Part shown: piece after piece, positions 1 through 36,307 of the stretch
Position numbering within the stretch: position 1 is the stretch's first letter
Layout: every line of letters starts with the position of its first letter
Virus record (IMG/VR): IMGVR_UViG_3300028417_000013
Span: 1-36,307 of that record
Direction: 5' to 3' (one strand)
Source: a virus
Length of the DNA stretch: 36,307 nt
Position numbers and translations under genes: made by a program
Notes under the pieces: generated by a model
The model's input: only the letters and a program-made list of their open reading frames with translations
Told to the model about the DNA's origin: nothing
The model's database searches: none

Positions 1-67
1 CGCGATGCCCTAAATCATCAGCAATTTTATTTTCTACTAATTTAAGTAAATCAATCTGCTTTGTCAT
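1..67 (-). CDS. Start of an unknown gene after the alternative fibre end (partial)
   Basis: An open frame starts with ATG at 67 and runs off the left edge. The visible 22 residues begin MTKQIDLLKLVENKIADD, and the start overlaps the end of the fibre frame by 17 nt, as is usual for coupled phage genes. It lies in the part of the contig (1-147) that seems to be a variant branch, so it probably belongs to a related phage or genome variant. The main path has a different gene after the fibre (35294-35572). Function is unknown and the fragment is too short for a family call. Confidence 0.35.
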   Translation of the reverse strand, partial: MTKQIDLLKLVENKIADDLGHR

Positions 68-1001
68 TGTGCTGAACCAGTTCAGCGAATCGTTCATCTT
101 CAGGTTTTTTGCGAGAAAGCGAAGCCATGCTAAGGGGGTAATCATAAAGCGCGCTAACCGATATCATTGAAGCATTAGCACTATCAGCGACAACGCCAGC
201 GGTTACATCGATATCGTGAGAGGCATCAGCTGCGTTGTTTGATAGAATTACTCCAGATTTATAACCATTTAGCAATGCCTGTAAAACACTATCAGCTGTT
301 GTTCCTTGCGCCGATGTTGCAAAATCTGCAATATCGCTTTCAACGATGTCGCCAAGACCATATTTTGTTTTCAATGTTGTAAGAGTACCAATACTTAAAC
401 GAGTAAGTGTCGCGGATGGAGTTTCATTTTTCCATAGAGCCGCAGCCTGATCGTAATACATGCTATCATCATCATTCAGGCCAGTGAATAATGTATCAAA
501 TCCCGCTAAAGATATACTTGAAGGATCAGAACCGTCAATACTACCAGTAGTGCCATTATATGTTAAAAATTGTCCGTCAGTTGGCGTAGAGATTATAGGA
601 TTTGTTACACTAGATGCTTCTAAATATTTCAATGAAAATGTTGATGAATCCCTTAATTGCTGAATTTGCAATACAACATTATTTAACGCTACCTCGATAG
701 CAGTCTCTTTTAATCTTGTGATATCTGAAAATTCTGTAGTTTGATCATAGTCAACTTCTCTGCGGATGATAATATCACCAACGGCAGTAAGGGGGGCAAC
801 AGCAAATGTCACAGTTCCACCAACAAAACTTGAATTTATTGCTTTTGTAATACCTGATGTAATCGGTGTTTCAACGTCATTCAAGACAGAAAATACTTTG
901 AAATCCCCCTCTTCGTAAACGAAAAAAGCAAAATTAAATATGGTTGTAACGCCATCAGCAGCGGCAACATTGAATCCGGGTGTGTCTGGAACGCCTGTCA
1001 T
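51..1001 (-). CDS. Tail fibre protein, T7 gp17-type N-terminus (alternative short 3' end)
   Basis: This 316-residue frame begins MTGVPDTPGFNV. Residues 1 to about 120 resemble the T7 tail-fibre N-terminal domain, which anchors the fibre to the tail: a hydrophobic beta-rich start, the RREVDYDQTTEF stretch, then a helix with QIQQLRD. The start has a good site, AAGGAG, just upstream. Residues 244-285 are encoded in the 126-bp repeat shared with the right end of the window. After Leu285 this copy has a short 31-residue end (YDYPLSMASL onward) unlike a normal fibre tip. The right-end copy instead continues for 195 residues in a pattern typical of fibre C-termini. The true fibre is probably the composite of 480 residues, with the end at 51-147 a variant. 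The N-terminal assignment is firm; the end is uncertain. Confidence 0.85.
   Translation of the reverse strand: MTGVPDTPGFNVAAADGVTTIFNFAFFVYEEGDFKVFSVLNDVETPITSGITKAINSSFVGGTVTFAVAPLTAVGDIIIRREVDYDQTTEFSDITRLKETAIEVALNNVVLQIQQLRDSSTFSLKYLEASSVTNPIISTPTDGQFLTYNGTTGSIDGSDPSSISLAGFDTLFTGLNDDDSMYYDQAAALWKNETPSATLTRLSIGTLTTLKTKYGLGDIVESDIADFATSAQGTTADSVLQALLNGYKSGVILSNNAADASHDIDVTAGVVADSANASMISVSALYDYPLSMASLSRKKPEDERFAELVQHNDKAD
148..273. repeat. 126-bp direct repeat, copy 1 (inside the fibre gene)
   Basis: Bases 148-273 are identical to 36182-36307. The match breaks at 147 (a) against 36181 (c), and the flanks toward lower coordinates are unrelated. The other side cannot be compared because the window ends. 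The repeat encodes about 42 fibre residues in the same frame in both places. Copy 1 does not start at base 1, so this is not a plain end-to-end overlap or a terminal redundancy. It is the pattern expected when a circular assembly path rejoins itself beyond a short side branch. Confidence 0.95.
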
Positions 1002-8304: not shown

Positions 8305-8307
8305 TGA

Positions 8308-11897: not shown

Positions 11898-11918
11898 GTT
11901 ATACCTCTTAACGTTAAT

Positions 11919-11960: not shown

Positions 11961-11974
11961 TCCTAAGCACCCAA

Positions 11975-12463: not shown

Positions 12464-12487
12464 TTTACTATTCCTTTCTTTTTAAAG

Positions 12488-14614: not shown

Positions 14615-14616
14615 AA

Positions 14617-24083: not shown

Positions 24084-24113
24084 ATGAAAATCCCCCTAAA
24101 TTAAAAACTGTGT

Positions 24114-24509: not shown

Positions 24510-24517
24510 CTCATTAT

Positions 24518-24712
24518 TTATTCCTCTCCAACGATGCGAGATATCATGTTTCCTACCCAATCGCTCTCTACATAATCGGCGCTATCTAAATATCCTGCTT
24601 GCATAAGCGCGTCTGCAACAGCCGATTGTATTTGCTTTGTTTTTAGGATTATTTTATCTTTTTCTTCAAAGGTGAAGTCTCCCTTTGGTAGGTTAACTCT
24701 TGTTTTATTCAT
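24518..24712 (-). CDS. Small hypothetical protein
   Basis: A 64-residue protein (MNKTRVNLPKGDFTFEEK) with a helical middle (IQSAVADALMQAGYLD) and acidic end. A good site, AAAAAGGA, lies 5 nt ahead of the ATG. It lies in the replication cluster, 8 nt before the DUF1064 gene. Function unknown. Confidence 0.55.
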   Translation of the reverse strand: MNKTRVNLPKGDFTFEEKDKIILKTKQIQSAVADALMQAGYLDSADYVESDWVGNMISRIVGEE

Positions 24713-24757
24713 CCTTTTTCTCCATTAGTTATATTATACAAGCTTCTTCTCTATCTG

Positions 24758-24859
24758 TCATTTTCCGTGTTCCTTTTCCGTATCTTTATCGCCGCGTTCA
24801 AACGCTTCGTAGTATTCTGTTTTAAGCGGAACGAATAAATTCTTCTGATCTATCGTCAT
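24758..24859 (-). CDS. Tiny ORF resembling the start of an ASCH-domain protein
   Basis: A 33-residue ORF, MTIDQKNLFVPLKTEYYEAF, then a charged end. 'LFVPLKTEYFEAF' is the usual start of phage ASCH (PUA-like) domain proteins of over 100 residues; here the frame stops after about 20 similar residues. It may be a remnant left by deletion, or a genuinely small peptide. The site (AGAAGAA) is weak. No downstream frame restores the missing part. Confidence 0.4.
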   Translation of the reverse strand: MTIDQKNLFVPLKTEYYEAFERGDKDTEKEHGK

Positions 24860-24936
24860 TTTGGTTCTTCTTTCTGTTTAGGTTGTGGTCTAATTACTAT
24901 TTTCTATAATTCAGTCGTTCGGGATTTCCTAATAAC

Positions 24937-25389
24937 TTAGTTCCATTTACTACCGCCAGAAACCCCTGAAACATTTGGGTCTAGCCTAGGAGATAATTCA
25001 TTCTTTTCGTATAAATATCCCTTATATGATTGCCAGCAGCTTTTCACTCTTTGCTTGTATTCACTGAACTGCATAACTCTGTTCTGGTCGTCGATACTTT
25101 CCTTTTTATCCTCCCTGATAACATTGATAATGTTTGAAGGCGTTGGCATACTGTCATTCGATCTTCTCCATAATTTAAACGCTATAATAATTTGCTCTTC
25201 GGTATATGGCTGTAAATCTTCAATAAAAGCTCGTGTGATACTTGCAAGTGCTGTTGTGTCTTTTCCGTATCTATTCAGGATATCAAAACTTTGTGAAATA
25301 TTCATGCTGATTACACTATTCTTTTTGATTGTACTCTTCGGCAATTGCTTGGCAGATTTCATCTGATGATTTCTTTTTTGATCTTCCAT
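24937..25389 (-). CDS. Helicase-loader-like replication protein
   Basis: A protein of about 150 residues. The core, IEDLQPYTEEQIIIAFKLWRRSNDSMPTPSNIINVI, matches the small helicase-loader/replisome-organiser pattern (Y(T/P)xExIxxAFxxWxR ... (M/F)PTPxxIxxxI) seen in many phages. It would recruit the host replicative helicase to the origin. The next gene upstream is a DUF1376 protein, its common partner. The start at 25389 is supported by AAGGAAAAAACTATG and overlaps that gene by 74 nt; 25305 is an alternative that avoids the overlap. Confidence 0.6.
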   Translation of the reverse strand: MEDQKRNHQMKSAKQLPKSTIKKNSVISMNISQSFDILNRYGKDTTALASITRAFIEDLQPYTEEQIIIAFKLWRRSNDSMPTPSNIINVIREDKKESIDDQNRVMQFSEYKQRVKSCWQSYKGYLYEKNELSPRLDPNVSGVSGGSKWN

Positions 25390-25855
25390 AGTTTTTTCCT
25401 TGTCTATATCTATTATTAGTAGGTGTGGGTGTGGGTGTGGGTGCATATGCCTTGGATTCGTTTTGCACTATGCTTTGCATGGTCTCTTTTTGTTTATTAT
25501 CAGTGTCTTGACCTTTTCCCCATCGTTTATTTGCTGCGGCACTGCGTTTTTCTCTAATTCCTTGCACATATACGTATTCTTTGCGCAAACGCTTTTGTAT
25601 CCAATACTTTGAGCCATCTTCTGTAATAATCTTGCAGAACTCTTGCATTATCGGGTGTATATGCTCGGCATATGCAAGTGCATCACAATTTATCCTTTTA
25701 GAAATCCAGTTCGGATCATTTGGAACTCGACAATTAGGCGTGCGCCACATCAAAATAAGAATGCGCATGTAGCGTCCAAATTCTGTATCGGTTAAATGAT
25801 AGCAATCGGCGACAACTGCGTCAGTAAATAGGGGTAAAGCTGGAAATTCGGCCAT
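25316..25855 (-). CDS. DUF1376 phage replication protein
   Basis: A 179-residue protein. Residues 1-110 match DUF1376: FPALPLFTDAVVADCYHLTDTEFGRYMRILILMWRTP, then a conserved RIL-type helix and RLRKEY...REKRSAAANKRWGK. This family is linked to replication initiation and is often followed by a helicase loader, as here. A (PT)4 linker (about 25421-25445, tandem GTGGGT units on the + strand) leads to a basic tail. It ends in TAG. It follows the ribbon-helix-helix gene with a 2-nt gap, so it is the second gene of the leftward operon. Confidence 0.85.
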   Translation of the reverse strand: MAEFPALPLFTDAVVADCYHLTDTEFGRYMRILILMWRTPNCRVPNDPNWISKRINCDALAYAEHIHPIMQEFCKIITEDGSKYWIQKRLRKEYVYVQGIREKRSAAANKRWGKGQDTDNKQKETMQSIVQNESKAYAPTPTPTPTNNRYRQGKNYGRSKKKSSDEICQAIAEEYNQKE

Positions 25856-25857
25856 AT

Positions 25858-26031
25858 TTAACCCTCCGCATTTACGGCTTCACAAGCTGCTTTTGCTGTT
25901 TGTAGTGCGTGAACTACACTATTTGATAAATTTCTATGCTCTTCCTCGCCTTTACTCTTTAACCATTCATGAAGATCAGTCGGGCAATGAAAGCCTATAT
26001 ATTTCTTGGGATTTTCTGTTTGATTTGACAT
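25858..26031 (-). CDS. Ribbon-helix-helix (Arc/CopG-type) regulator
   Basis: A 57-residue protein starting at 26031 with a strong AAAGGAGA site. It has a short N-terminal strand (KKYIGFHCP), then two helices (DLHEWLKSKGEEE and LSNSVVHALQTAKAA) separated by RN, the compact RHH layout. Such dimers read DNA with the N-terminal strand. It is the first gene leftward from the divergent control region and is the only transcription regulator candidate in the window besides a winged-helix protein. It likely controls the rightward promoter, where an operator-like motif lies. Confidence 0.7.
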   Translation of the reverse strand: MSNQTENPKKYIGFHCPTDLHEWLKSKGEEEHRNLSNSVVHALQTAKAACEAVNAEG

Positions 26032-26102
26032 TAATTTGTCTCCTTTCAGTATCAGAATTACACAAAGGAGATTTTAAGGCAACAAAAAAGATAAAAAAAG
26101 AT

Positions 26103-26145
26103 TTGACATCCAACTCATGTTGTTTTACTGTTGTTACATAGAGTT
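26103..26145 (+). promoter_or_regulatory. Rightward early promoter with operator-like repeats
   Basis: TTGACA (26103-26108) and TACTGT (26126-26131) are 17 nt apart. The -10 region lies in ATGTTGTTTTACTGTTGTT (26117-26135), which has two TGTTGTT units 11 nt apart. A flanking inverted repeat runs AACTCATGT (26112-26120) / ACATAGAGTT (26136-26145, one-base bulge). The same motif recurs at the second promoter near 27841. It starts the + strand operon and is a candidate operator for the ribbon-helix-helix protein. Confidence 0.65.
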
Positions 26146-26161
26146 AATAAAGGAAGCAATA

Positions 26162-26317
26162 ATGTTAAATAAAAACTACCCATACAAACCACAAAGATCG
26201 TTTTATGACTTCACTAATATGACGGATGCGCAGATTGAGCGTGAAATTGAAGTACAGCGAGCAGAATTTGGGCGTATTATCTCAAATGTGGTGAAATTCC
26301 CAACAAAAGGAGAATAA
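26162..26317 (+). CDS. Small hypothetical early protein
   Basis: A 51-residue protein starting at 26162 (AAAGGAAG upstream), not at the earlier in-frame codon at 26117 which overlaps the promoter. The sequence is hydrophilic (MTDAQIEREIEVQRAEFG) and probably helical. First gene of the rightward operon; function unknown, perhaps a host-takeover peptide. Confidence 0.6.
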   Translation: MLNKNYPYKPQRSFYDFTNMTDAQIEREIEVQRAEFGRIISNVVKFPTKGE

Positions 26318-26320
26318 ATC

Positions 26321-26608
26321 ATGTCTATAGAATCATGCAGATGCGGCGCAGCGGTCGATACAGATGAAGACGAGCTTGCGTATATAGTAACGTTGGAAAA
26401 TTACGAGGAAATAAAACTTGATTATTGTCTTTGTGAATATTGTCGCGATGAGTTCGTGTCGTTAATGGAAGTTAAAGAAAAAACAGATCAATTTGTTCAG
26501 GACATCTTTGACCATGTTAGTAGCGTTGGTCGCGTGGACTTTTTAGCTGATCTTTATGAGTTCCGCAGAAATATTGAAGATAAAATCAATCCAAAGAAAG
26601 GGGAATAG
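26321..26608 (+). CDS. Small Cys-rich protein, possible zinc ribbon
   Basis: A 95-residue acidic protein. Cys pairs CRC (residues 6-8) and CLCEYC (around 36-41) could bind one zinc. The remainder is helical (VKEKTDQFVQDIFDHV; FLADLYEFRRNIEDKI). It lies 3 nt after the previous gene. Function unknown. Confidence 0.6.
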   Translation: MSIESCRCGAAVDTDEDELAYIVTLENYEEIKLDYCLCEYCRDEFVSLMEVKEKTDQFVQDIFDHVSSVGRVDFLADLYEFRRNIEDKINPKKGE

Positions 26609-26610
26609 TC

Positions 26611-26925
26611 ATGTCAGAGCAAAAATATCTTTATTCAATTTATGAGATTTCAGAAGTTAAGCCAGGCGCAGAGTCAGGGCTAGGAGATTGTATTTGTGAA
26701 GAATACAATAGAGATGAGGTTATCAAAAAAGCCGTTGATTACTTCGAGCAAAATTCTGTCGATAACATGGAATTTGGCGAAGGCGCGCTGGACGTTAAGC
26801 TTATTATTCACGACGAAAAAACTGAAAACGAAACGATCGAAGATTTAACGATCGAATGGCTTGCCGAAGACGACGGATATGACGGCGGTGCTTTCGATTG
26901 CAACACATCAAGAGGGGTTAAATAA
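26611..26925 (+). CDS. Small acidic hypothetical protein
   Basis: A 104-residue, strongly acidic protein (MSEQKYLYSIYEISEVK; later EDDGYDGGAF). Strands and helices alternate. Acidic early phage proteins can mimic DNA and block host nucleases, but no specific family is recognised and that idea is speculation. Its start is 2 nt after the previous stop with a GGGGAATAG site. Confidence 0.6.
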   Translation: MSEQKYLYSIYEISEVKPGAESGLGDCICEEYNRDEVIKKAVDYFEQNSVDNMEFGEGALDVKLIIHDEKTENETIEDLTIEWLAEDDGYDGGAFDCNTSRGVK

Positions 26926-27063
26926 ATGTTTAACCAAATATACAAAACAAACGCGATGATCGCTGACAGCTTAAAGGCGCATCACGCAGCCATCAAATGG
27001 AATTCTTACCTAAGTATGCTTTATGTCTGCGCAGCCGTTGCAATCGGGGGGGTGGTTCTATGA
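26926..27063 (+). CDS. Tiny membrane peptide
   Basis: A 45-residue ORF starting directly after the previous stop (AGAGGGGTT upstream) and overlapping the next gene by 4 nt. The last 18 residues (LSMLYVCAAVAIGGVVL) form a likely transmembrane helix. Tight spacing on both sides supports it as real. Function unknown. Confidence 0.5.
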   Translation: MFNQIYKTNAMIADSLKAHHAAIKWNSYLSMLYVCAAVAIGGVVL

Positions 27064-27320
27064 CAACATGCACACGATGTGAAAACACAGGTTTTTTAAA
27101 TCTTCACCAAATGAACAACGAAGATTTAAGGCAAATGGATATTGCTAAAGACCCGCAAGAATTTGTTTTAGGGTGGATAAAAAGGAACTCTGGTCATGAC
27201 ATCCAGGTGTGCGATTGCTGCGGCGATGGCGAAGGATGGTATGGAGTCCAAGGGGAACATTACAAAGGCGAATGCCAAAGCGTCTATGATTACAACGGCG
27301 GACTTTGCGAGTGTCACTAA
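27060..27320 (+). CDS. Small zinc-ribbon protein (DnaJ-type CxxC)
   Basis: An 86-residue protein with CTRCENTGFLN at residues 4-14 (a CxxCxxTGFxx knuckle like DnaJ zinc repeats), later CDCCGDGEGWYG and C-terminal CQ and CECH. It could bind one or two zinc ions. The start at 27060 (ATGA overlap with the upstream gene) is chosen over 26997. Function unknown; possibly a protein- or nucleic acid-binding factor. Confidence 0.6.
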   Translation: MTTCTRCENTGFLNLHQMNNEDLRQMDIAKDPQEFVLGWIKRNSGHDIQVCDCCGDGEGWYGVQGEHYKGECQSVYDYNGGLCECH

Positions 27321-27832
27321 TGAAAAGTAAAATGCCACCAAAGGGCGCAGGGAGATCGGATATTTTCTATACTCCTGAATCGGCCATACTCCCAGTTATT
27401 GAGTACATCCCTAAAGGATTCAAGATATGGGAATGTGCGCAGGGCGAAGGGTATATGGTTGATGTTTTTAGAAGCCATGGATTTGATTGTATAGGTACGG
27501 ATGAAACAGAAGGATTTGATTTTTTAGACACTTTTTCTTCTGCGCTAGTAGGTGATTTTGATTGCATCATAACTAACCCACCTTACAGCATCAAAGATAA
27601 GTTTTTAGAGCGTTGCTACGATATAGGAAAGCCATTTGCTCTTTTGATGCCAATTACAGCACTAGGAGAGCAGGCGAGGGTGAAAATGTATAAAGATCAT
27701 GGAATAGAGATACTGCTTCTACCTAAACGAGTTGATTTTATAACGCCATCAGGCGAGGGGCAAGGCGCTTGGTTTTATTGTGCTTGGTTTTGCTGGAAAT
27801 TACTCCCTGAACAAATTAATTTTGCCGATTGA
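27320..27832 (+). CDS. Phage DNA adenine N6-methyltransferase-like protein
   Basis: A 170-residue protein. Motif I is ECAQGEG (residues 38-44), followed by an acidic strand end (IGTDETEGFDF), motif IV TNPPY (85-89), and a helical-beta core ending in GAWFYCAWF. This is the short, single-domain SAM-dependent N6-adenine methyltransferase fold. There is no separate target-recognition domain, so specificity is probably low or set by loops. It starts with ATG at 27320, overlapping the previous stop by one base (TAATG). It may protect phage DNA from host restriction. Confidence 0.82.
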   Translation: MKSKMPPKGAGRSDIFYTPESAILPVIEYIPKGFKIWECAQGEGYMVDVFRSHGFDCIGTDETEGFDFLDTFSSALVGDFDCIITNPPYSIKDKFLERCYDIGKPFALLMPITALGEQARVKMYKDHGIEILLLPKRVDFITPSGEGQGAWFYCAWFCWKLLPEQINFAD

Positions 27833-27860
27833 CATTGTTTCAATGTTGCTTTAACGTTGT
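27829..27860 (+). promoter_or_regulatory. Second rightward promoter with the shared motif
   Basis: TTGACA (27829-27834) and TAACGT (27852-27857) are 17 nt apart. The flanking ATGTTGCTTTAACGTTGTT (27843-27861) matches the first promoter's motif at 16 of 19 bases, with TTGACAT at the same distance. It overlaps the methyltransferase stop codon and drives the recombination genes. Confidence 0.6.
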
Positions 27861-27883
27861 TTTTATAAACCCAAAAGGAGACT

Positions 27884-28156
27884 ATGACTACCAATACCGA
27901 AGAAAACAAAGAGCTTATTGTAATCAACAACGATTTCAAACCTATTGAAGTTTTCAGTGCCGCAAAAGGGCTTGATCCAATTATCGAACAGATCCGCCAA
28001 AAGGTTAAATCAGAGATTTTCGATGTAACAACCGAGGCCGGACGTAAAAGAATGGGTTCTGTCGCTCGTCAAATTGGCTCGTCAAAATGTAAGCTGGAAA
28101 AAATGGCGAAAGAATTAACAGAAGACTGGCGCACAGAAACAATATCCGCAACGTAA
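27884..28156 (+). CDS. Shortened phage protein (N-terminal domain only)
   Basis: A 90-residue protein. FDVTTEAGRKRMGSVARQIGSSKCKLEKMAKELTEDW matches the N-terminal domain of a common phage protein (DUF1351-like class) that is usually over 200 residues and continues into a coiled coil after this point. Here it stops with TETISAT. A good AAAAGGAGA site and promoter lie upstream. It may be a functional minimal form or the truncated remnant of a longer gene. Such proteins lie beside recombination genes, as here with Erf. Confidence 0.6.
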   Translation: MTTNTEENKELIVINNDFKPIEVFSAAKGLDPIIEQIRQKVKSEIFDVTTEAGRKRMGSVARQIGSSKCKLEKMAKELTEDWRTETISAT

Positions 28157-28191
28157 AAATTAACTATTAACCAACTGAAAAGGAAAAAACT

Positions 28192-28995
28192 ATGGAAAAT
28201 ACACCATCAAATACAGGCGAAAAACAGGAAGTTTTTATCCCTCCTGAACCAGAAACACCAACGCAGCAAGTCGTTGTTGTTGGCACAGCCGAACAGCAGA
28301 TGATACAAAGCATCGCGACAATGGTTTCAGACCCAGCGTGTGACGTAGATAAGATGGGAAGAATGCTGAATATCCAAATAACTATGATGGATAGGCAAGC
28401 CAAGATGGACTTCGATCAAGCCCTAGCACGTGTTCAAGCTGATATGCCACGCATCACAGAAAAGGGAGCCATCAAAAACAAAGCTGGTTTCGTAACTGCG
28501 ACGTACTTGAAATATGAAGACATTGACCGAGAGATACGCCCACGCTTGCAGAAGGAAGGTTTTTCGCTCATGCACACCCGATCAGAGGTGAACAACAAAA
28601 TGGTTGTCAAGACGACCTTAAAGCACAAGGCTGGACATGAAGAAGCTGTCGAAATGCCACTTCCTTATGATGCGCCAAACGCCATGAAGAACGCAGTGCA
28701 AGCTGCCGTTTCTACATTCTCATACGGAAAGCGCGTCAATGTCTGTTCTCTTCTTAATATTGTGGCACAGGGCGAAGATGATGATGGCCAGATGGCAGAG
28801 GCAAATCCAATCACAGATGAACAGGCAGCCGAAATAAAACAAAGCCTTCAACGCCTGTTTGAAGCTGGAAAGAACGTCGATACCCGCAAGTTCTTGAACT
28901 ATATCGGAGCTGATACCGTTGACGAAATCCCCGCATCAAAATTTGAAGATGCTATTGCACTTTTGAAGCGCAAAGAAGGCGAAGGTGAAGCATGA
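28192..28995 (+). CDS. Erf-family single-strand annealing protein
   Basis: A 267-residue protein. The core is FDQALARVQADMPRITEKGAIKN...KYEDIDREIRPRLQKEGFSLMHTRSE, then AVQAAVSTFSYGKRVNVCSLLNIVA, typical of Erf proteins. These form rings and anneal complementary single strands. It has a Pro-rich N-terminal arm of about 40 residues and a C-terminal helical domain (after residue 205) that may bind host SSB. The start has an AAAAGGAA site. It works with the YqaJ exonuclease two genes downstream; an HNH gene lies between them. Confidence 0.9.
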   Translation: MENTPSNTGEKQEVFIPPEPETPTQQVVVVGTAEQQMIQSIATMVSDPACDVDKMGRMLNIQITMMDRQAKMDFDQALARVQADMPRITEKGAIKNKAGFVTATYLKYEDIDREIRPRLQKEGFSLMHTRSEVNNKMVVKTTLKHKAGHEEAVEMPLPYDAPNAMKNAVQAAVSTFSYGKRVNVCSLLNIVAQGEDDDGQMAEANPITDEQAAEIKQSLQRLFEAGKNVDTRKFLNYIGADTVDEIPASKFEDAIALLKRKEGEGEA

Positions 28996-29462
28996 TTGTA
29001 AAGATGGGTCAGGAAAAATCTATGATTATCGATGATTGCGATTATCATTTAATAAAAGATCATACATGGTCTTATGATGGGAGATACGCGAGATCAACAC
29101 GTCGTACTAAACGAAAATATGCGCATCGATTGATAATGAAAGCAAATAAAGGGCAGATGATAGATCATATAAATGGCGATAAGCTGGACAATCGAAGGGA
29201 GAACTTACGCTTTTGCAGCCGACACCAGAATGCAGCAAACATGCAGAAAATGCGCGGCGGTTCAAGTAAATTTAAAGGAGTTTCTTTTGATAAAACTACA
29301 CAAAATTGGCGCGCAAAAATAGGATTTCATGGTAAAAGTTTATGCGCCGGCAGACATGAAACACAAACAAAAGCTGCCTTAGCTTACAACAAAAAGGCTT
29401 TAGAATTATTTGGTAAATTTGCACATTTAAACGAGGTAAAAAACGATGACTTTACATTTTAA
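28992..29462 (+). CDS. HNH homing-type endonuclease with AP2 DNA-binding domain
   Basis: A 156-residue protein. HRLIMKANKGQMIDHINGDKLDNRRENLRFC is a classical HNH motif (DH-NGDKLDNRRxNLR). The C-terminal half, KFKGVSFDKTTQNWRAKIGF...KKALELFGKFA, is an AP2 domain as in phage homing nucleases. It starts in an ATGA overlap with the Erf stop and ends 17 nt inside the exonuclease start. It sits between two partner genes, Erf and YqaJ, in a typical free-standing homing site. It probably spreads by cutting related phages. Confidence 0.88.
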   Translation: MIVKMGQEKSMIIDDCDYHLIKDHTWSYDGRYARSTRRTKRKYAHRLIMKANKGQMIDHINGDKLDNRRENLRFCSRHQNAANMQKMRGGSSKFKGVSFDKTTQNWRAKIGFHGKSLCAGRHETQTKAALAYNKKALELFGKFAHLNEVKNDDFTF

Positions 29463-30168
29463 TATTATACAGAACACTTCATCTTGGATGGATGCGCGGG
29501 GAGGACTCGCCACCTCGTCGGCCTTTGGGAGAATTATTACGCCATCGGGAAATAAAAGCACCCAGATGGACGACTATGCAACGCAAGTCGCTCTAGAATT
29601 GGTTCTTGGAAGGTCAATTGATCGAGATATAAGCAATATGTATCAAATACAATGGGGGAATGAATACGAGGGGAAGGCGGCGGATTTGTATCAATTCGAA
29701 ACTGGATACGATCTTGAACATGGCGGGTTTTTCTGTGATGACCACTTCAAGCGCGGTGCGTCTCCTGATGCTATTGTGATAGAGAACGGCGAACAGATAG
29801 GGTTAGTTGAGATTAAATGCCCTGAAAATCCAATAAAACACGGCGGATTCATGTTCAAGAGAACGATCAACAAAACATACAAACCGCAGCTATTCGGACA
29901 AATGATTATCACGGGCTTTGAATGGGTGGACTATTTTTCTTTCTATCCAGAGCTTCCACACGTGAAGATCCGCACAAGAAAGGAATCTGACATGGAGTTC
30001 TATCGTAAACTTGAGAGTTTACTTGATGAATTTGCGGATTTGGTTCAAGAAAAGCTCGAATCTATGGTGAGATGCGGACATATCAATGAAGTGCCTGTTA
30101 AATTTATTGAGCCTACAAAAGAAACCATCAAACCAGACGTTCCAAACGACGTTCTAATGGGTGGGTAA
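29446..30168 (+). CDS. YqaJ-type (lambda-exonuclease-like) recombination exonuclease
   Basis: A 240-residue protein with the PD-(D/E)xK core: WGNEYE (Glu75), GASPDAIV (Asp108) and VEIKCP (Glu122, Lys124). This matches YqaJ/lambda Exo active sites. It resects double-strand ends 5' to 3' for annealing by Erf. The ATG overlaps the end of the HNH gene by 17 nt. The C-terminal helical part ends with a short tail. Family assignment is firm. Confidence 0.92.
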   Translation: MTLHFNIIQNTSSWMDARGGLATSSAFGRIITPSGNKSTQMDDYATQVALELVLGRSIDRDISNMYQIQWGNEYEGKAADLYQFETGYDLEHGGFFCDDHFKRGASPDAIVIENGEQIGLVEIKCPENPIKHGGFMFKRTINKTYKPQLFGQMIITGFEWVDYFSFYPELPHVKIRTRKESDMEFYRKLESLLDEFADLVQEKLESMVRCGHINEVPVKFIEPTKETIKPDVPNDVLMGG

Positions 30169-30169
30169 C

Positions 30170-30451
30170 ATGGATTATTATTTCAACCCAGCCACAGAAA
30201 AACATTTCCCCGATATGATGATCGGGTGGCCGCAATATCACAACGACAACCAAAAGGAAAATAAACAAATGCCCGACAAAAAGAAAAATAAGACGTGGGA
30301 GGACGCCATACAAGCAGCCGTAGAACATCATCAAGATATCATCAAAGACATGGTCAACATAATTAAACAGCAATCGGAAATTATCGAAATCCATGCCTCA
30401 AAAATTAGAACCCTAGAAGAATTTCAGGCGGTGGAAAATGTCACAAACTAA
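30170..30451 (+). CDS. Hypothetical protein with coiled coil
   Basis: Starting at ATG 30170, this is about 93 residues. An aromatic N-terminus (MDYYFNPATEKHFPDMMIGWPQY) is followed by a basic patch and a helix (AAVEHHQDIIKDMVNIIKQQSEIIEIHASKI). An alternative start at 30270 with AAAAGGAAA upstream would give only the helical part. It overlaps the following gene by 14 nt. No family recognised. Confidence 0.5.
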   Translation: MDYYFNPATEKHFPDMMIGWPQYHNDNQKENKQMPDKKKNKTWEDAIQAAVEHHQDIIKDMVNIIKQQSEIIEIHASKIRTLEEFQAVENVTN

Positions 30452-30701
30452 CCACACAAGGACGCAAGAACTTTCTTCGATGGCATTATTTGGCTTAGAA
30501 ACAAAACTTCGCAAGTACCTCACGGAGAAATTTCAAGCAGAAATAAATAAAAAGGTCGATGAATTAGTCGGGCAATTTATGTCTGAATTCTCCGTGAATG
30601 CAGAAAGCGCACTAGATGTCTATAAAAACGAAACAATAGTCGTCGTAAAAACATTTTTTAACAATGAGGAGCAATCGAAAGATGGAAAACACACAGAATA
30701 A
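30438..30701 (+). CDS. Hypothetical helical protein
   Basis: An 87-residue protein, mostly helical (LETKLRKYLTEKFQAEINKKVDELVGQFMSEF). It overlaps genes at both ends, which supports translation. No recognised family; perhaps a small oligomeric or nucleoprotein factor. Confidence 0.5.
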   Translation: MSQTNHTRTQELSSMALFGLETKLRKYLTEKFQAEINKKVDELVGQFMSEFSVNAESALDVYKNETIVVVKTFFNNEEQSKDGKHTE

Positions 30702-31170
30702 AATGGAAGTTATCTACAACAAGAGACCGCCGAACTTTGATGTAATTGTCAAAGCCTTTCCAATGGCTGCGAACGATGGAGTGGTCTTTGCTTATGGTGA
30801 CGAAATTTACGTTCCTAGCGGTAAAGAATTAACCCACCACTTAAAAGTTCATGAAGCCACACACGGCATCCGCCAAAAAGAATTTGGGCTTGATGAATGG
30901 TGGCAACGCTACATAGAAGACGAAGCCTTTCGATATTATGAAGAGCTTGTCGCGCACTTTTCTGAATATATGTCGATGATCTCTGAAAACGATGTTCGCC
31001 CATATCGCAGGAAATGCATGGGTTTTATAGCCCAGAAGCTCGCACACCCTCTATATGGGTGCAAAGGCGGGGCTGCAAAAGCTAAGCGGGATCTAAAAAG
31101 CATGGAACGTGAATATCGTGAAGGCAAAGGAACTTCTGAAACTGGCGCACAAGGAAAAAGTTGTGGATAA
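30682..31170 (+). CDS. Zincin-like putative metalloprotease (HExxH)
   Basis: A protein of 162 residues starting MENTQNKMEVIYNK (GAGGAG upstream). It contains HEATH (residues 57-61), a HExxH zinc site, in the context LKVHEATHGIRQKEFG. A further Glu lies about 27 residues later (YYEELVAHFSEY, Glu87/88), where a third ligand would be expected. Other helices are rich in aromatic residues. Unusual for a phage early gene, it may cleave a host factor or process a phage protein. The fold is inferred from motif spacing only. Confidence 0.55.
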   Translation: MENTQNKMEVIYNKRPPNFDVIVKAFPMAANDGVVFAYGDEIYVPSGKELTHHLKVHEATHGIRQKEFGLDEWWQRYIEDEAFRYYEELVAHFSEYMSMISENDVRPYRRKCMGFIAQKLAHPLYGCKGGAAKAKRDLKSMEREYREGKGTSETGAQGKSCG

Positions 31171-31516
31171 CAAAATAATATATTTAACGCAAGGCTTCGT
31201 CGCTATAGTGAGCGCAGCCGATCACGAAAAAATAAAAATATATATGTGGCATGTTCACAGGTCAGGGGGTAAAGGAAAGAAGCTCGGCAATCCTTACGCC
31301 AGAACAACAATCAGCGGAAAAAAGGTATATATGCATAGGCTTATTGCATCACCAGAAGATAATCTTCAAGTTGATCACCGTAACGGACAAACCCTTGATG
31401 ATCGCCGCGTTAACATTGAGCCAGTAGATAATAAAACCAACCAGCGCAGAAAAATAAAATATACAGGAGTTAGGACAAAAAAAGAAAAAACTACCTTGAC
31501 TTTAGACTTGTTTTAA
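31163..31516 (+). CDS. Second HNH endonuclease
   Basis: A protein of about 117 residues from GTG 31163 (AAGGAA 7 nt upstream); a longer frame from 31109 lacks a clear site. It has the IIYLTQGFVAIVSAADHEKI start and the MHRLIASPEDNLQVDHRNGQTLDDRRVNIEPV core typical of small phage HNH nucleases (DH-NG--LDDRRxN). It lacks the AP2 domain of the first HNH gene. It lies just after the zincin-like gene. Probably a mobile gene. Confidence 0.8.
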   Translation: MDNKIIYLTQGFVAIVSAADHEKIKIYMWHVHRSGGKGKKLGNPYARTTISGKKVYMHRLIASPEDNLQVDHRNGQTLDDRRVNIEPVDNKTNQRRKIKYTGVRTKKEKTTLTLDLF

Positions 31517-31569
31517 GCAACATTTAAACCACCACAAAGCAACCACTAACCAACAAAAGGACTAAGACT

Positions 31570-32142
31570 ATGAATAAAGAAAACCAAGAGCCGCAAAATT
31601 ATGAAGTTGAATCTGGTGTGACGGATATAACTGAAACAGTTTCCAGCGTAGCGCAAGAAACAATGGTTGGAGATCTGCGCGATGTTTGCTTACAGATAAT
31701 TCGCAACCCATCACTAACAGGCAAGGCATGGAAGGATATGAGCGAAGCACAACAGCGCGACGTAGCACAACAAATCACCGATCGCGTGTCGGATGCAGTC
31801 ATAAAATCTGTTCGGATAATCGCAGCTAACGGCCAACGTCAAATTATCGGAACACTTGAGCAGGTAACCAATAAAGACGGCATGAAGTCTGTTATCAAGA
31901 CAAGCGCACATGATGAGCTTCGCCACGAATTAAATGATGCTGTTGGAAGCTGTGTGGCAATCGTTTTAACTGGCGCGGAAGAATACATAGGCGTTGGTGA
32001 AAAAGTTAAGATCGATAAGGATCAGCCAGAGCTTATCGAAGACCTAGAAACAACGGAGGACGAAGCACATGACCCAGAAACAGGCGAGATCGAAGACCCT
32101 GAAATCGAAGCACTCGATCAAGAGTCGGCGAACTACACTTAA
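31570..32142 (+). CDS. Hypothetical early protein
   Basis: A 190-residue protein. An N-terminal acidic arm is followed by a globular part (VVGDLRDVCLQIIRNPS-like helix, SVRIIAANGQRQIIGTLEQVTNK, then SVIKTSAHDELRHELNDAVG and a VAIVLTG strand). The final 40 residues are acidic. A strong AAAAGGAC site and TTGACT upstream indicate expression. It often sits near recombination genes in similar phages, but no known function. It overlaps the next gene by 74 nt. Confidence 0.55.
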   Translation: MNKENQEPQNYEVESGVTDITETVSSVAQETMVGDLRDVCLQIIRNPSLTGKAWKDMSEAQQRDVAQQITDRVSDAVIKSVRIIAANGQRQIIGTLEQVTNKDGMKSVIKTSAHDELRHELNDAVGSCVAIVLTGAEEYIGVGEKVKIDKDQPELIEDLETTEDEAHDPETGEIEDPEIEALDQESANYT

Positions 32143-32371
32143 TCCTGCAAGGCTGGAACTGACGGAGGCGCAAACAGAGGTTTATAAAACCGTGCGCAGT
32201 CGTCAGGCGCTGGGTTTGACCACCACCAGCACAGATGTCACGAATGATCGTGGCTTAAAAGACCGCACTTCGACATACAGAGTTTTAAAATCTCTTATCG
32301 AGAAAGGCATAATACAAACTTACGGCGGCAAATATTACAAGCTCGCTGAACAAACTGAAAAGGAACTATGA
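32069..32371 (+). CDS. Winged-helix DNA-binding protein
   Basis: A 100-residue protein with a basic N-terminus (KTLKSKHSIKSRR) and a winged-helix core (LTEAQTEVYKTV, TSTDVTNDRGLKDRTSTYRVLKSLIEKGIIQTYGGKYYKL). The recognition helix would be DRTSTYRVLKSLIEKG. It could regulate phage or host transcription. A GGAGG site precedes the ATG, which lies inside the previous gene. Confidence 0.65.
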   Translation: MTQKQARSKTLKSKHSIKSRRTTLNPARLELTEAQTEVYKTVRSRQALGLTTTSTDVTNDRGLKDRTSTYRVLKSLIEKGIIQTYGGKYYKLAEQTEKEL

Positions 32372-32760
32372 CTATGACTATGACTATTAATGAATTAACA
32401 ATTGGCCAAGCAAAAGAGCTGACTGCACTTTTTGGTGGTAATCAAGCTGTCAATGATGGTTTGAATGACATGATCGGTGATAAAGTCATAATTAGGACTT
32501 ATTCTGCTGGCGTTTGGTTTGGTGTTTTATCAAAAAAAGCTGGCAATGAAGTTATTCTGTCTAATGCTAGGAGATTGTGGTACTGGAAGGCTAAAAAAGA
32601 AATTAGTTTAAGCTCGGTTGCCTTATATGGAATTGATGAAAGTGATAGCCGTATAGTCGTGCCAATTGATAGCGTATGGCTTGAAGCAATAGAAATAATC
32701 CCATGCTCTGATGCTTCTATAAAATCCATAGAAGGGGCTAAAAATGAGCAAGCTAGATAA
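32368..32760 (+). CDS. DUF6948-like phage protein
   Basis: A 130-residue protein. GDKVIIRTYSAGVWFGVLSKKAGNEVILSNARRLWYWKA...LSSVALYG, then SVWLEAIEIIPCSDASIKSIE, is the conserved pattern of a phage family often encoded next to Gly-rich repeat proteins. The beta-rich fold has no known activity. The start ATGACTATGACTATGACTATT contains three tandem ATGACT units (MTMTMTIN), so initiation may occur at several codons. It overlaps the previous gene by 4 nt. Confidence 0.7.
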   Translation: MTMTMTINELTIGQAKELTALFGGNQAVNDGLNDMIGDKVIIRTYSAGVWFGVLSKKAGNEVILSNARRLWYWKAKKEISLSSVALYGIDESDSRIVVPIDSVWLEAIEIIPCSDASIKSIEGAKNEQAR

Positions 32761-32974
32761 ACCTGCTGGCTCTGGCTATGGCGATGGCTCTGGCTATGGC
32801 GCTGGCAATGGCTATGGCTCTGGCAATGGCTCTGGCAATGGCTATGGCTCTGGCTATGGCGATGGCTCTGGCGATGGCTCTGGCAATGGCTCTGGCTATG
32901 GCTCTGGCTATGGCGATGGCTCTGGCTATGGCGATGGCTCTGGCGATGGCTCTGGCAATGGCTCTGGCGAATAA
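32744..32974 (+). CDS. Gly-Ser-Tyr-Asp/Asn repeat protein
   Basis: A 76-residue protein. After MSKLDKPAG, almost all residues alternate Gly with Ser, Tyr, Asp or Asn (GSGYGDGSGYG...). No fold or catalytic motif. It starts inside the end of the DUF6948-like gene (17-nt overlap), a pairing seen in other phages. Such [G/S]Y[G/S] low-complexity chains resemble those that form condensates or flexible coats, but this is inference. The same DNA is also open in another frame (Ala-Leu-Ala-Met repeats). Confidence 0.6.
   Translation: MSKLDKPAGSGYGDGSGYGAGNGYGSGNGSGNGYGSGYGDGSGDGSGNGSGYGSGYGDGSGYGDGSGDGSGNGSGE
32768..32968. repeat. Tandem 6-bp (GGC-NNT) repeat array
   Basis: About 33 units of GGC followed by TCT, TAT, GAT or AAT. 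The units are ordered in irregular 12- to 24-bp blocks. Expansion or contraction by 6 bp keeps the reading frame, so length variants should be tolerated. Confidence 0.9.
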
Positions 32975-33018
32975 TTAAACTTTATCAAATCTAAACCTAA
33001 GAAAAAAGGAATATAATT

Positions 33019-33234
33019 ATGACTTCACTATCAGGAAAAGTAAAATTCTTCAACCACGATAAAGGCTTCGGATTTATCACCCCAAATGATGGCAGTGGTG
33101 ACGTTTTCGTCCATATCACGGCCATTCAAGATTCTCACCTCGACAGCTTGAGCGATACCGACGAAGTGACGTTTGACAAAGTTGAAGGTAAAAACGGCAA
33201 ATTTCAGGCTGAAAACATCAGTATCACAAATTAA
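33019..33234 (+). CDS. Cold-shock (CspA-type) RNA chaperone
   Basis: A 71-residue CSD protein with RNP1 KGFGFI (15-20) and RNP2 VFVHI (29-33), starting GKVKFFNHDKG. It binds single-stranded RNA and DNA and can melt structures or act as an antiterminator. Standard family length. It follows the repeat protein after 44 nt (AAAAAGGAA site) and precedes a tRNA-like RNA. Confidence 0.93.
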   Translation: MTSLSGKVKFFNHDKGFGFITPNDGSGDVFVHITAIQDSHLDSLSDTDEVTFDKVEGKNGKFQAENISITN

Positions 33235-33240
33235 CCTTAT

Positions 33241-33303
33241 GGGGATGGTTGCATAGTTCAATGCGTGTAATTCTAAGTAGCAGGTGGAAACCCTGCCATC
33301 TCC
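33241..33303 (+). ncRNA. 63-nt tRNA-like structure without anticodon arm
   Basis: Acceptor-like stem: GGGGATG (33241-33247) with CATCTCC (33297-33303), 7 bp with one G-T. T-arm-like: GCAGG (33280-33284), loop TGGAAAC, CCTGC (33292-33296), perfect 5 bp, directly adjoining the acceptor strand as in tRNA. D-arm-like: TGCA (33250-33253), 8-nt loop, TGCG (33262-33265). Only 14 nt lie between D and T arms, too few for an anticodon arm. The D loop has TTC and the T loop has GAA, a possible reversed loop contact. The element is followed by TACA, not CCA. It could be a degenerate tRNA, a tRNA mimic or a processing signal. Confidence 0.45.
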
Positions 33304-33338
33304 TACAACTTAATCATAAAATAAGAAGGACTAAAAAT

Positions 33339-33623
33339 ATGCCTATTTATCTAGTAAAAACACCAAACGGCCAAAAAATGGTTAACGCACCAACCAAGGC
33401 CAGAGCTATCAACCATGTAATCAAGAATACCATCACAGCAGAGGCGTTGAGCGCCGAAACTGTAGTAGCACGCATGGAAGATGGTGAAGCCGTTGAGAAG
33501 GTCGGATATGCATCCGAAGCACCTGTTCAGCCAGAAGCTACAGAAGAGACAGGATTTTATTCCAATGAGGAATTAGATGCAGCTCATGACGAGGTTGACC
33601 ACACCCGTCCGTTGGAGGATTGA
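33339..33623 (+). CDS. Small hypothetical protein
   Basis: A 94-residue protein from ATG 33339 (AGAAGGAC site). MPIYLVKTPNGQKMVNAPTKARAINHVIKNTI is a pattern seen in small phage proteins; the C-terminus is acidic. The earlier in-frame start at 33249 would run through the tRNA-like element and is unlikely. Function unknown. Confidence 0.6.
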   Translation: MPIYLVKTPNGQKMVNAPTKARAINHVIKNTITAEALSAETVVARMEDGEAVEKVGYASEAPVQPEATEETGFYSNEELDAAHDEVDHTRPLED

Positions 33624-33626
33624 AAA

Positions 33627-33821
33627 ATGCGCTTTATATGTATGTTGGTTTTTTGTGCTTTATTATTTGGCTGGATATCAAATGTGTACCAATATACAAA
33701 GCTTGATTTTAAAAGCCCATACAAGGCCGAAGCAATTCGGACAATAGGACTAATCCCACCTATAGGCGCGGTCATTGGTTACATTAAAATTAATGACGGC
33801 ATAACAGAACAAGGAGAATAA
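33627..33821 (+). CDS. Small membrane protein
   Basis: A 64-residue protein with an N-terminal hydrophobic segment (FICMLVFCALLFGWI) and a second moderately hydrophobic stretch (IRTIGLIPPIGAVIGYI). It probably spans the inner membrane twice. It starts 3 nt after the previous gene. Similar small phage proteins are unannotated. Confidence 0.6.
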   Translation: MRFICMLVFCALLFGWISNVYQYTKLDFKSPYKAEAIRTIGLIPPIGAVIGYIKINDGITEQGE

Positions 33822-33824
33822 ATC

Positions 33825-34262
33825 ATGGAAAACAACAAAGAATTTCCACAGTATTATCATGTTGAAGACCTCTATGGCAATGTTTTTGCCGTTGTATGTC
33901 GTGAGCATGAAACGTTATTTACAGTTATTCAGAAACGCGATGTTCGCAAGTCGTTTATCGTTTCCAAAGTTAGTAATGAGGCCGCAGTCCGAGAGCTTGC
34001 ACCAGGGCAAATGCTCGGAGCGTCAGCGCATGATTATGAAGAAGTCTTGACGAAAGAGTTTGGATTTTCTTTGTCTAATGATGTGATTTGTTATTACCCA
34101 GAACCGGAGGAAAATGCCAATGTCGAAGAAGTTTCACCAGACAGAAGCGGAGGAAGTTCGGCAGATGGAAATAAAGGAAGCGATCCAGAAATTGAACCAA
34201 CTTCCAGCACTGATGACCAACAAGAAGATAGCTGCACAGATGCTAAGTCAGCCAATAGATAA
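33825..34262 (+). CDS. Hypothetical early protein with acidic tail
   Basis: A 145-residue protein. Residues 1-90 form a mixed globular domain (VEDLYGNVFAVVCREHETLFTVIQKR; EAAVRELAPGQMLGASAHDYEEVL). Residues 95-145 are low complexity (Ser, Gly, Asp, Glu). The tail shares its DNA with another frame that has a better gene-like character (34120-34266). The real protein could end sooner in related phages. It begins with an AAGGAGAATAA site. Confidence 0.55.
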   Translation: MENNKEFPQYYHVEDLYGNVFAVVCREHETLFTVIQKRDVRKSFIVSKVSNEAAVRELAPGQMLGASAHDYEEVLTKEFGFSLSNDVICYYPEPEENANVEEVSPDRSGGSSADGNKGSDPEIEPTSSTDDQQEDSCTDAKSANR

Positions 34263-34266
34263 ATAA
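34120..34266 (+). CDS. Probable small overlapping gene
   Basis: A 48-residue frame inside the 3' end of the preceding gene, in the +1 frame. GGAGG at 34106-34110 is 9 nt ahead of ATG 34120 (another ATG at 34114 is too close). The peptide MSKKFHQTEAEEVRQMEIK, then AIQKLNQLPALMTNKKIAAQM, is a well-formed amphipathic helical protein, unlike the Ser/Asp-rich tail of the other frame. It stops right before the operon terminator. Probably a real last gene; function unknown. Confidence 0.5.
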   Translation: MSKKFHQTEAEEVRQMEIKEAIQKLNQLPALMTNKKIAAQMLSQPIDK

Positions 34267-34283
34267 TTTCACTGTGTAACTGC

Positions 34284-34321
34284 ATAGAGAAGCCCCGCCG
34301 ATTAAAGTGGGGCTTCTCTAT
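34284..34321. terminator. Bidirectional terminator between the two operons
   Basis: ATAGAGAAGCCCC (34284-34296) and 34309-34321 form a perfect 13-bp stem with a 12-nt loop. A T-rich run (GGTTTTTTC) follows about 6 nt downstream on the + strand. It lies between the end of the + strand operon (34266) and the end of the - strand lysis genes (34302-34421), so it can stop both. Confidence 0.8.
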
Positions 34322-34421
34322 ATTGTGGTTTTTTCTTTGGGATATGTAGAGGCCTGTCAGTTCGCCGCCTTCTCCATCCAGGATGATGTCTATTAGGGCG
34401 CATTGCCAAATTCTTAATCAT
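34302..34421 (-). CDS. Possible small basic peptide after the holin
   Basis: A 39-residue frame whose ATG overlaps the holin stop by 8 nt (ATGATTAA). It is very basic (RPNRHHPGWRRRRTDRPL), with Pro, and ends in the terminator loop. The overlap favours translation; overlap with the hairpin argues for caution. Such basic peptides might bind membrane or nucleic acid. No family recognised. Confidence 0.35.
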   Translation of the reverse strand: MIKNLAMRPNRHHPGWRRRRTDRPLHIPKKKPQYREAPL

Positions 34422-34902
34422 TATATTTATACCGTTTTTCTTTTCGATCGTTCCAAGTAATGCCCTCTTGTGGATCAGGCTCGTCAGGAATTGGGCGTGT
34501 TAATTTTTGCCGCTGGATTTGAGGGGTATCTTTAACTTTAAATTTTCCGAAATCCTTATGAAGACGACCACCAAAAAAGAACACGATAATTGTCCCTAGA
34601 ATCCACCAGCCTTCTTGCGGCATAGCCTGTAACGCAAGGGCAGAATTTTGAAACTTTATAGGATATTCTATGCACAACCAAAAAATATAAATTGTTCCGA
34701 ATGCAAAGATCGGACGCGGCAATCTGTTCAGGCCATCGATCAAACTATCAAACCAATTCCTTGAATGTCCGAATTCATTGGCAAACTGTGAATGTATGGA
34801 CTGAAAAGCTGCGGCATCATTTTGATCGCGTTGTTGTTTTGATCCAAAAATTGTTTTAATTAAACCGCCTATTAGCGGAATACCTTGCAATAATAAACTC
34901 AT
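34414..34902 (-). CDS. Holin of the three-TM gene-transfer-agent type
   Basis: A 162-residue protein starting MSLLLQGIPLIGGLIKTIFG (GAGGGGG upstream; longer frame rejected). After a charged helix with FANEFGHSRNWFDSLIDGLNRLPRP, it has FAFGTIYIFWLCIEYPI and ILGTIIVFFFGGRLHKD membrane segments. This is the pattern of the GTA_holin_3TM family. It releases the endolysin across the inner membrane. Overlaps the M15 gene by 4 nt. Confidence 0.82.
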   Translation of the reverse strand: MSLLLQGIPLIGGLIKTIFGSKQQRDQNDAAAFQSIHSQFANEFGHSRNWFDSLIDGLNRLPRPIFAFGTIYIFWLCIEYPIKFQNSALALQAMPQEGWWILGTIIVFFFGGRLHKDFGKFKVKDTPQIQRQKLTRPIPDEPDPQEGITWNDRKEKRYKYND

Positions 34903-35294
34903 ACAAACCCCCTCGGAAGTTGAAAATGTGGATAATCTTTGAAGTTTTTCCAATGACCTCCCCATTGAATAGGTAATCCAAGCTCATTTGCTGCACGAAA
35001 CATCAATGTTCCCATCATTAAGAAGCGTTCCCTGTCATTCCAATCAACTGGATATGGAATAAGATCAACAGCATGGCCATACCCACTACCTTGAATACGA
35101 TGTAAACTGTTCATTGTTTGGCTTGCGCCAATATCAACAAGTTGCTCTTGATCCATCTTAGTGCGTAAACCACCAAGAGGAGGTACTGTTAAGTCCAAAA
35201 TTCCGTACGAAATGGCACGTTCTGCGCACTCACAAAGCAGGGGATGAACCCCTTGCATACGATTCAATGATGTTGAGCCAAATTTATAAGCCAT
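34899..35294 (-). CDS. M15-family endolysin (L-Ala-D-Glu/D-Ala-type peptidase)
   Basis: A 131-residue protein. The N-terminal helix (VHPLLCECAERAISYG) is followed by SLHRIQGSGYGHAVDL with His65, His74 and Asp77, and WGGHWKNFKDYPHFQL with His123. These are the zinc ligands and context of VanY/M15 endolysins. The stretch between the first His and Gly-His-Ala is longer than usual (RIQGSGY). It cleaves peptidoglycan stem peptides. It sits in a holin-endolysin-membrane-protein cassette. Confidence 0.9.
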   Translation of the reverse strand: MAYKFGSTSLNRMQGVHPLLCECAERAISYGILDLTVPPLGGLRTKMDQEQLVDIGASQTMNSLHRIQGSGYGHAVDLIPYPVDWNDRERFLMMGTLMFRAANELGLPIQWGGHWKNFKDYPHFQLPRGFV

Positions 35295-35572
35295 TATTTA
35301 TTTACTTTCGCGTCCAATTTATCAAATAACTTATCTTGCTTCCGCTCAATACGTCCGAGGATTCTTTCTATATTTTTGTTCTGAATATCATTCTTCTGTT
35401 CGATGCGCCTGTCTTCTGATGCAAGCCGCTCTATGCGAGTTTCAACGCTTGAAGCCCACCAAAGGCCAGAGACGAGAATACAAACAATCGTGACCAATTG
35501 GCCGATCGTGACTTCTTTTTTTAAATGCCAACCGTTCACTCTATATTCCCCACAGTTATGTTCAACTTCCAT
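35294..35572 (-). CDS. Membrane-anchored coiled-coil protein (spanin/holin accessory-like)
   Basis: A 92-residue protein. NGWHLKKEVTIGQLVTIVCILVSGLWWASSVETRIERL has a single membrane helix, followed by a long coiled coil to the end. This is a common phage arrangement next to endolysins and could be an inner-membrane spanin or holin-like helper. It overlaps the M15 gene by one base. Confidence 0.65.
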   Translation of the reverse strand: MEVEHNCGEYRVNGWHLKKEVTIGQLVTIVCILVSGLWWASSVETRIERLASEDRRIEQKNDIQNKNIERILGRIERKQDKLFDKLDAKVNK

Positions 35573-35592: not shown

Positions 35593-36307
35593 TTAAAAAA
35601 ACTCTGTCCATCCAGTTGTAACCACCCTGATAACGGCTGTGGCACTAGCCACTGTACGCACCCTAGAGGAGGTATCTGTCATAACACTACTATTAGCAAC
35701 CCCTTGGTTTGCTGAGGCATCGTATTGTGATGCGAGCGGAGCAAGAGAAGTGCTCGCCGCTAGGTCTGTTTGTTCTGGGTCAGAAACGTACACAGCCTGA
35801 CCATCTGCGTTATTTATAGTCAGTCTTGCAGCTACAGAAATTCCCAGTGGTGTTTTAACCACCCGCAGGGCTGCCGTCGTTGTTTGGGAAACAGAAATAT
35901 CAAGTGTAGGGCTATTCCAATCAAAGCGATCTCCATTTTGTTGAAAACCTACAATATTAGCAGAACCATCAGTTAGTATAGAGCCAATACGCCTGTAAGC
36001 CGCAGCACCATGATCTGCCACTAAGTTAGCGGCTGTAATAGATGTGTCAAAGCCAACATCATCCACACCCGCAACCTTTATAACAAAGACATGATACCAA
36101 GTGCTATTAGCCACCGTCAATGATGATGATAATCCGCCTTGGTTTGTACCAGTAGACCATGATGCATCTATACGCTTTGTCAGCGCGCTAACCGATATCA
36201 TTGAAGCATTAGCACTATCAGCGACAACGCCAGCGGTTACATCGATATCGTGAGAGGCATCAGCTGCGTTGTTTGATAGAATTACTCCAGATTTATAACC
36301 ATTTAGC
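35593..36307 (-). CDS. Tail fibre C-terminal part (canonical end; continues into 1-1001)
   Basis: The frame enters from the right edge and ends at 35593. Its first 42 residues are identical to residues 244-285 of the fibre at 51-1001. It then continues TKRIDASWSTGTNQGGLSS, NSTWYHVFVIKVAGVDDVGFDTS, AAYRRIGSILTDGS and a C-terminal domain ending GWTEFF. The (LTKR)(I/L)DA-W..G..GGL and TWYHVFxI..DVGFDTS..YRRIGS pattern is common in phage fibre tips. Joined at the repeat, the fibre would be 480 residues. An internal ATG at 36201 is not the true start. Confidence 0.85.
   Translation of the reverse strand, partial: LNGYKSGVILSNNAADASHDIDVTAGVVADSANASMISVSALTKRIDASWSTGTNQGGLSSSLTVANSTWYHVFVIKVAGVDDVGFDTSITAANLVADHGAAAYRRIGSILTDGSANIVGFQQNGDRFDWNSPTLDISVSQTTTAALRVVKTPLGISVAARLTINNADGQAVYVSDPEQTDLAASTSLAPLASQYDASANQGVANSSVMTDTSSRVRTVASATAVIRVVTTGWTEFF
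36182..36307. repeat. 126-bp direct repeat, copy 2 (right edge)
   Basis: Identical to 148-273 and running exactly to the end of the window. Toward lower coordinates the sequence differs. It encodes the same fibre segment in the same frame and marks the likely circular join. Confidence 0.95.

Follow-up and report, generated by a model that had tools for sequence, protein, structure and literature searches.

In a phage contig whose final bases recur near its opposite end, a short way inside the edge, the question arises as to what the bases lying outside the repeat represent. The window analysed here, namely the whole 36,307 nucleotides of IMG/VR record IMGVR_UViG_3300028417_000013, raises this question within a tail-fibre gene. 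A preliminary description, made from the letters alone, regarded the window as a circle of about 36,034 bp accompanied by a 147-bp branch from a phage variant, and proposed that the population may hold two versions of the fibre. The evidence discussed below retains the circle and reassigns the branch. With a probability of roughly 0.92, the contig is the complete circular map, 36,034 bp in length, of one phage, carrying a chimeric bacterial tip of 147 bp on its left end. The features on which this reading rests are collected in Table 1.

Table 1. Features of the window at and around the two contig ends.
Feature	Position	Strand	Basis and relationship
Hybrid sensor histidine kinase gene, internal fragment	1..81	-	81/81 identical to JAMONE010000018.1 3594-3674, Micavibrio MAG
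epmA/genX-like (EF-P lysine ligase) gene, internal fragment	82..147	-	64/66 identical to JAMONE010000072.1 10876-10941, same Micavibrio MAG
Closure overlap, left copy	148..273		Within the fibre gene, fibre residues about 244-285; identical to 36182-36307
Fibre, N-terminal and middle part (first 284-285 codons)	148..1001	-	Residues 1-196 63% identical to the G001 fibre; weak PHROG tail-fibre matches
Internal virion protein, 1526 residues	1043..5623	-	81% identical in G001, directly upstream of the G001 fibre; adjoins the fibre
Endolysin (peptidase M15 type)	34899..35294	-	Pfam PF13539, PHROG 465; 68% identical, same order in G001
Small lysis (Rz-spanin-like) protein	35294..35572	-	Weak PHROG spanin match; 32% identical protein at the same place in G001; adjoins the other side of the fibre
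Fibre, C-terminal part (remaining codons of 480, and stop)	35593..36181	-	C-terminal domain common to five other viral contigs, 31-44% identity
Closure overlap, right copy	36182..36307		Extreme contig end; identical to 148-273

Closure of the contig into a circular map

Direct comparison bore out the repeat that had been described, together with its differing flanks: the two copies form a direct repeat identical at 126 of 126 positions, with a start-to-start spacing of 36,034. On the left, the match ends at base 147 (A) against 36181 (C), and on the right it ends merely where the contig ends. An exact repeat of 126 bases is far beyond anything for which chance could account. It joins both ends of the contig, though the left copy begins at position 148 and not at 1, and the minus-strand path that results, from 1001 to 148 and then from 36181 to 35593, is open for 480 codons and a stop without any internal stop, confirming the 480-residue fibre proposed earlier.

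The gene order obtained by this joining recurs in the nearest relative found, IMGVR_UViG_3300005043_000007 (36,737 bp; G001), in which most structural proteins are 60-89% identical to those of the window and follow the same order. The two genomes are colinear and circularly permuted, such that window 649-20698 corresponds to G001 14973-34979 and window 23811-35298 to G001 614-12961. G001 has an unbroken series of genes for the large internal protein, the fibre, two small proteins, the small lysis protein, the endolysin, and the holin, which places side by side what in the window lies at opposite ends. The termini of G001, in turn, map to window positions between 20698 and 23811, a stretch that is continuous both in the window and in a third relative (L036). 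The permutation of G001 is independent support for the closed map of 36,034 bp.

The fibre itself provides a further line of evidence. Its residues from 1 to about 134 weakly resemble the N-terminal regions of tail fibres (PHROGs), and the part extending from about residue 246 to the C-terminus has homologues in the five other viral contigs of Table 1, in all five of which the domain runs through the branch point. Invariant residues of this domain (W50, G53, and G57, in the numbering of the 237-residue right-end frame) lie just past the branch point. The structure predicted for the fibre C-terminus is of mediocre confidence (mean pLDDT 69), and its comparison with the PDB gave no match at an E-value of 0.001 or better.

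Because of the repeat, the circularly permuted relative, and the fibre homologues running through the branch point, the closure of the window into a map of about 36,034 bp is well supported as real and ordinary, as the preliminary description had suggested, and the two 126-bp copies represent a single site of the fibre gene. The molecule itself need not be circular, since concatemers or permuted linear DNA lead to the same map.

Direct terminal repeats of 100-300 bp occur in some short-tailed phages, and the 126 bp could on that ground be considered a physical repeat present twice per linear genome, with unique phage sequence outside it. This is very improbable, given that the repeat lies in one gene whose halves adjoin in the relative, that nothing but its own fibre module and two additional small genes is present there in the relative, and that the left flank is bacterial and not phage DNA.

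The overlap of 126 bp is one below a k of 127, the usual largest k in assembly. Repeats of k-mer length at contig ends are a known assembly effect of circular templates (PMC8116208), and the study with which the bacterial MAG described below shares its sample name (PMC9793634) assembled its metagenomes by metaSPAdes, with k reaching 127; that study may not be the source of the window contig. The window resembles the short-read contigs with DTRs treated in CheckV (PMC8116208) in that an exact repeat of about k-mer length, here near the common value of 127, joins both genome ends, but it differs from them in that the left copy sits 147 bp inside, behind a foreign tip, and in that its length is one short of 127. 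Because the tip precedes the repeat, the closure of the window would be missed by strict tests for end repeats; a short chimeric tip can thus conceal the closure of a complete phage genome from tests of this kind.

Bacterial origin of the terminal 147 bases

The two coding pieces of positions 1-147 were combined into one query, which was searched in viral contigs and in bacterial genome contigs. Among the bacterial contigs, the composite query led to two contigs of one MAG, Micavibrio sp. isolate 4281-140_metabat2_scaf2bin.024 (JAMONE01, sample 4281-140), with E-values within the genome of this MAG of 1.6e-36 for 1-81 and 1.1e-25 for 82-147. The gene at JAMONE010000072.1 is presumably epmA/genX-like, as judged from its sequence; related proteins encoded by four further alphaproteobacterial MAGs share with it the motif DYPxSMASLSRKKPxDxRxAE, and both mismatches between 82-147 and the gene fall at third codon positions. 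The match extends three bases (148-150) into the phage repeat, making window 82-150 identical at 67 of 69 positions, and only those three bases fit the phage as well. The junctions accordingly have three shared bases (epmA/phage) and none (kinase/epmA).

These two pieces, of at least 81 bp (kinase) and of 66 bp (epmA), account for all 147 bases, and both host genes are truncated in the window. Their sources are unrelated and non-adjacent, being situated on two contigs, within two different intact genes, of the one MAG. No other near-identical piece of the Micavibrio MAG was found in the rest of the window. What had been described as a different gene (MTKQIDLLKLVENKIADDLGHR), at the left edge, comes from within the histidine kinase gene of the host and is not a gene start, and the branch formerly attributed to a phage variant consists of fragments of unrelated genes of this MAG.

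The frame at 51-147, which had been described as a short atypical fibre end, is indeed open; it continues for 31 codons past the branch and ends in ...YDYPLSMASLSRKKPEDERFAELVQHNDKAD*. It is open because the phage sequence and the epmA-like gene join in phase (both at codon phase 1), so that most of it is the epmA-like frame. An in-phase join of this type is a one-in-three chance, and about 15% of random stretches of 31 codons at the GC content of the window are expected to be open.

A variant phage, contributing a short alternative fibre end and a different gene and implying two fibre versions in the population, would draw its support from this open frame and from the different C-terminal fibre module carried by the relative. 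Against it, the two bacterial gene fragments explain every base of the branch, the open frame starts out as that of epmA, in phase by chance, and the branch breaks a conserved fibre domain, ending it after about 42 residues and thereby cutting it mid-way. Searching 1-147 against related phages, as had been recommended, yielded nothing: the segment is absent from all seven phage records in which it was sought, no relative of the composite of both coding pieces was found among the viral contigs, another frame of the branch gave nothing there, and the protein search in phages with branch pieces of 25 and 22 residues was likewise empty. The existence of such a variant is therefore highly improbable. 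The alternative end does not belong to the phage, whose fibre exists here in one version, not two; the claim of two versions, and with it that of a host-range switch, is removed, as it rested on bacterial DNA, which carries no evidence on fibre variation.

As regards switching elements, no inverted repeats or repeated fibre segments were found at the fibre, and the only inverted pair of at least 30 bp in the window (14602-14647/32986-33031) is situated away from it. Among the proteins scanned, no sign of a diversity-generating retroelement (reverse transcriptase and template repeat) came up.

Fibre modules are nevertheless exchanged between these related phages, as revealed by comparing window 148-1001 and 35593-36181 with the relative (L003:6001-8091), where the N-terminal part is common and the C-terminal module differs. 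In G001, the fibre has the similar N-terminal part listed in Table 1, but it comprises 421 residues, possesses an unrelated C-terminal module, and precedes two small genes (115 and 158 residues) without counterpart at that place in the window. The general expectation that fibre tips change is consequently borne out, but as a separate fact that is unconnected with 1-147.

Direct contact of bacterial and phage DNA also brings an integrated prophage into consideration, in which 1-147 would be the host flank and the 126-bp repeat an att duplication. What adjoins the phage, however, is bacterial DNA from two unrelated loci within 147 bp, and the right end is without any bacterial flank; thus no single contiguous host locus lies on both sides. 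Moreover, the site is inside the fibre gene, where integration would cut the fibre, the relatives are not integrated at that site, and no integrase was seen among the proteins scanned, a set that covered the small ORFs in part. An integrated prophage is hence scarcely credible.

Formation of the chimeric tip

The left end is a host-host-phage chimera, most likely of in-vitro origin and retained in the assembly as a tip. The molecule would have been formed by ligation, PCR, or displacement amplification during library making, and would have been read often enough for the assembly graph to gain an edge leading into the phage loop; the tip and one turn of the loop may then have been traversed together, assembly stopping when the loop's start was met again. 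A tip exceeding the length of a single short read is normally backed by several reads, which makes repeated sampling of the chimera, or its origin in a longer read, probable.

In chimeras formed in MDA, the joined segments are mostly inverted and lie within 10 kb of each other, and they have 2-21 bases in common at the junction (PMC1855051). The window is similar to them in the abrupt abutment of unrelated sequences with few shared bases (three and zero), and different in that 147 bp contain two joins, each involving the same bacterial genome. Junctions with three and zero shared bases are at least as compatible with ligation-type or intermolecular chimeras as with those of displacement amplification. 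An origin in proximity ligation (Hi-C) was considered and rejected, no restriction-site duplication being visible at the junctions.

For random chimeras in a mixed community, two bacterial pieces from one genome would be an unlikely outcome unless the bacterium were abundant or physically together with the phage. This leads to another explanation, in which the junction arose within an infected cell: host fragments would have become linked with one another and with replicating phage DNA, either through illegitimate end joining or through annealing by the phage's ERF/YqaJ recombination proteins. Both bacterial pieces do come from one MAG, which is independently a probable host, genes for an ERF annealing protein and a YqaJ exonuclease are present in the phage, and three and zero shared junction bases are compatible with end joining. 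On the other hand, in-vitro chimeras are common and call for no special biology, and ordinary annealing by ERF-type proteins needs more than the zero to three shared bases present here. Joining in the cell is accordingly regarded as improbable, albeit worth retaining, and the same doubt applies to its stronger form, according to which chromosomal shards of about 70-80 bp become linked, during infection of Micavibrio-like cells, with one another and with replicating phage DNA frequently enough to be assembled. If this were true, in-cell host-phage chimeras would be a natural record of the host.

Probable host

Apart from the chimeric tip, the protein content of the phage points to the same bacterium. 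The phage protein encoded at 22339-23760 (minus strand) has, over the 238 residues from 17 to 254 in its N-terminal half, 58% identity with a protein of the Micavibrio MAG (E 1.7e-83), which is encoded at L028:953-1699 (minus strand) in a locus of exopolysaccharide type and adjoins a capsule-type tyrosine kinase and a glycosyltransferase. The next best match to the phage protein among 385 Alphaproteobacteria is 61% identical over only 74 residues (E 8.5e-24). Because this MAG holds by far the best homologue of the phage domain among the 385, the Micavibrio-like bacterium represented by JAMONE01 is probably the host of the phage, as far as sequence comparison can indicate.

Two other candidate lines of host evidence were rejected. 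Homologues of the terminase are present in 4/142 members of the order of the MAG against 32/385 of the class, and are thus no commoner in the order; a 32-bp match to the MAG (91%, window 31553-31584), considered as a CRISPR spacer, has no surrounding repeats.

Cultured Micavibrio are predators of other bacteria. No named Micavibrio phage appeared in the titles returned by literature searches, which does not prove that none exists. A nucleotide search of the window ends in 50,697 phage records returned only a 44-base match in the endolysin. A probable host, alphaproteobacterial and Micavibrio-like, is hereby supplied for a phage with almost no DNA match at its two end regions in the phage collection.

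Other features of the window

Several observations concern regions away from the fibre or other genomes. In the order to which the MAG belongs, a contig of 967 kb (G128:C4) carries, at about 15.5-35.6 kb (L044/L045), distant homologues of the terminase, the portal, two tail genes, and the endolysin, arranged in order, so that a distantly related prophage is probably present there.

Within the window, a gene resembling HNH/AP2 homing endonucleases (28992-29462) lies between the ERF and YqaJ genes. G001 is without a homologue of it at that place, and has only one matching a second such gene of the window, at 31109-31516.

An array of 12- and 18-bp repeats at 32736-32998, upstream of a cold-shock-like gene, encodes a low-complexity ORF rich in glycine, serine, and tyrosine. 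The same cold-shock-like gene is preceded by the second copy of a 46-nt segment (32986-33031), which is present in inverted orientation at 14602-14647; both copies end in a ribosome-binding site and an ATG, and further copies are found in G001 (94% similar) and in the Micavibrio MAG (83% similar).
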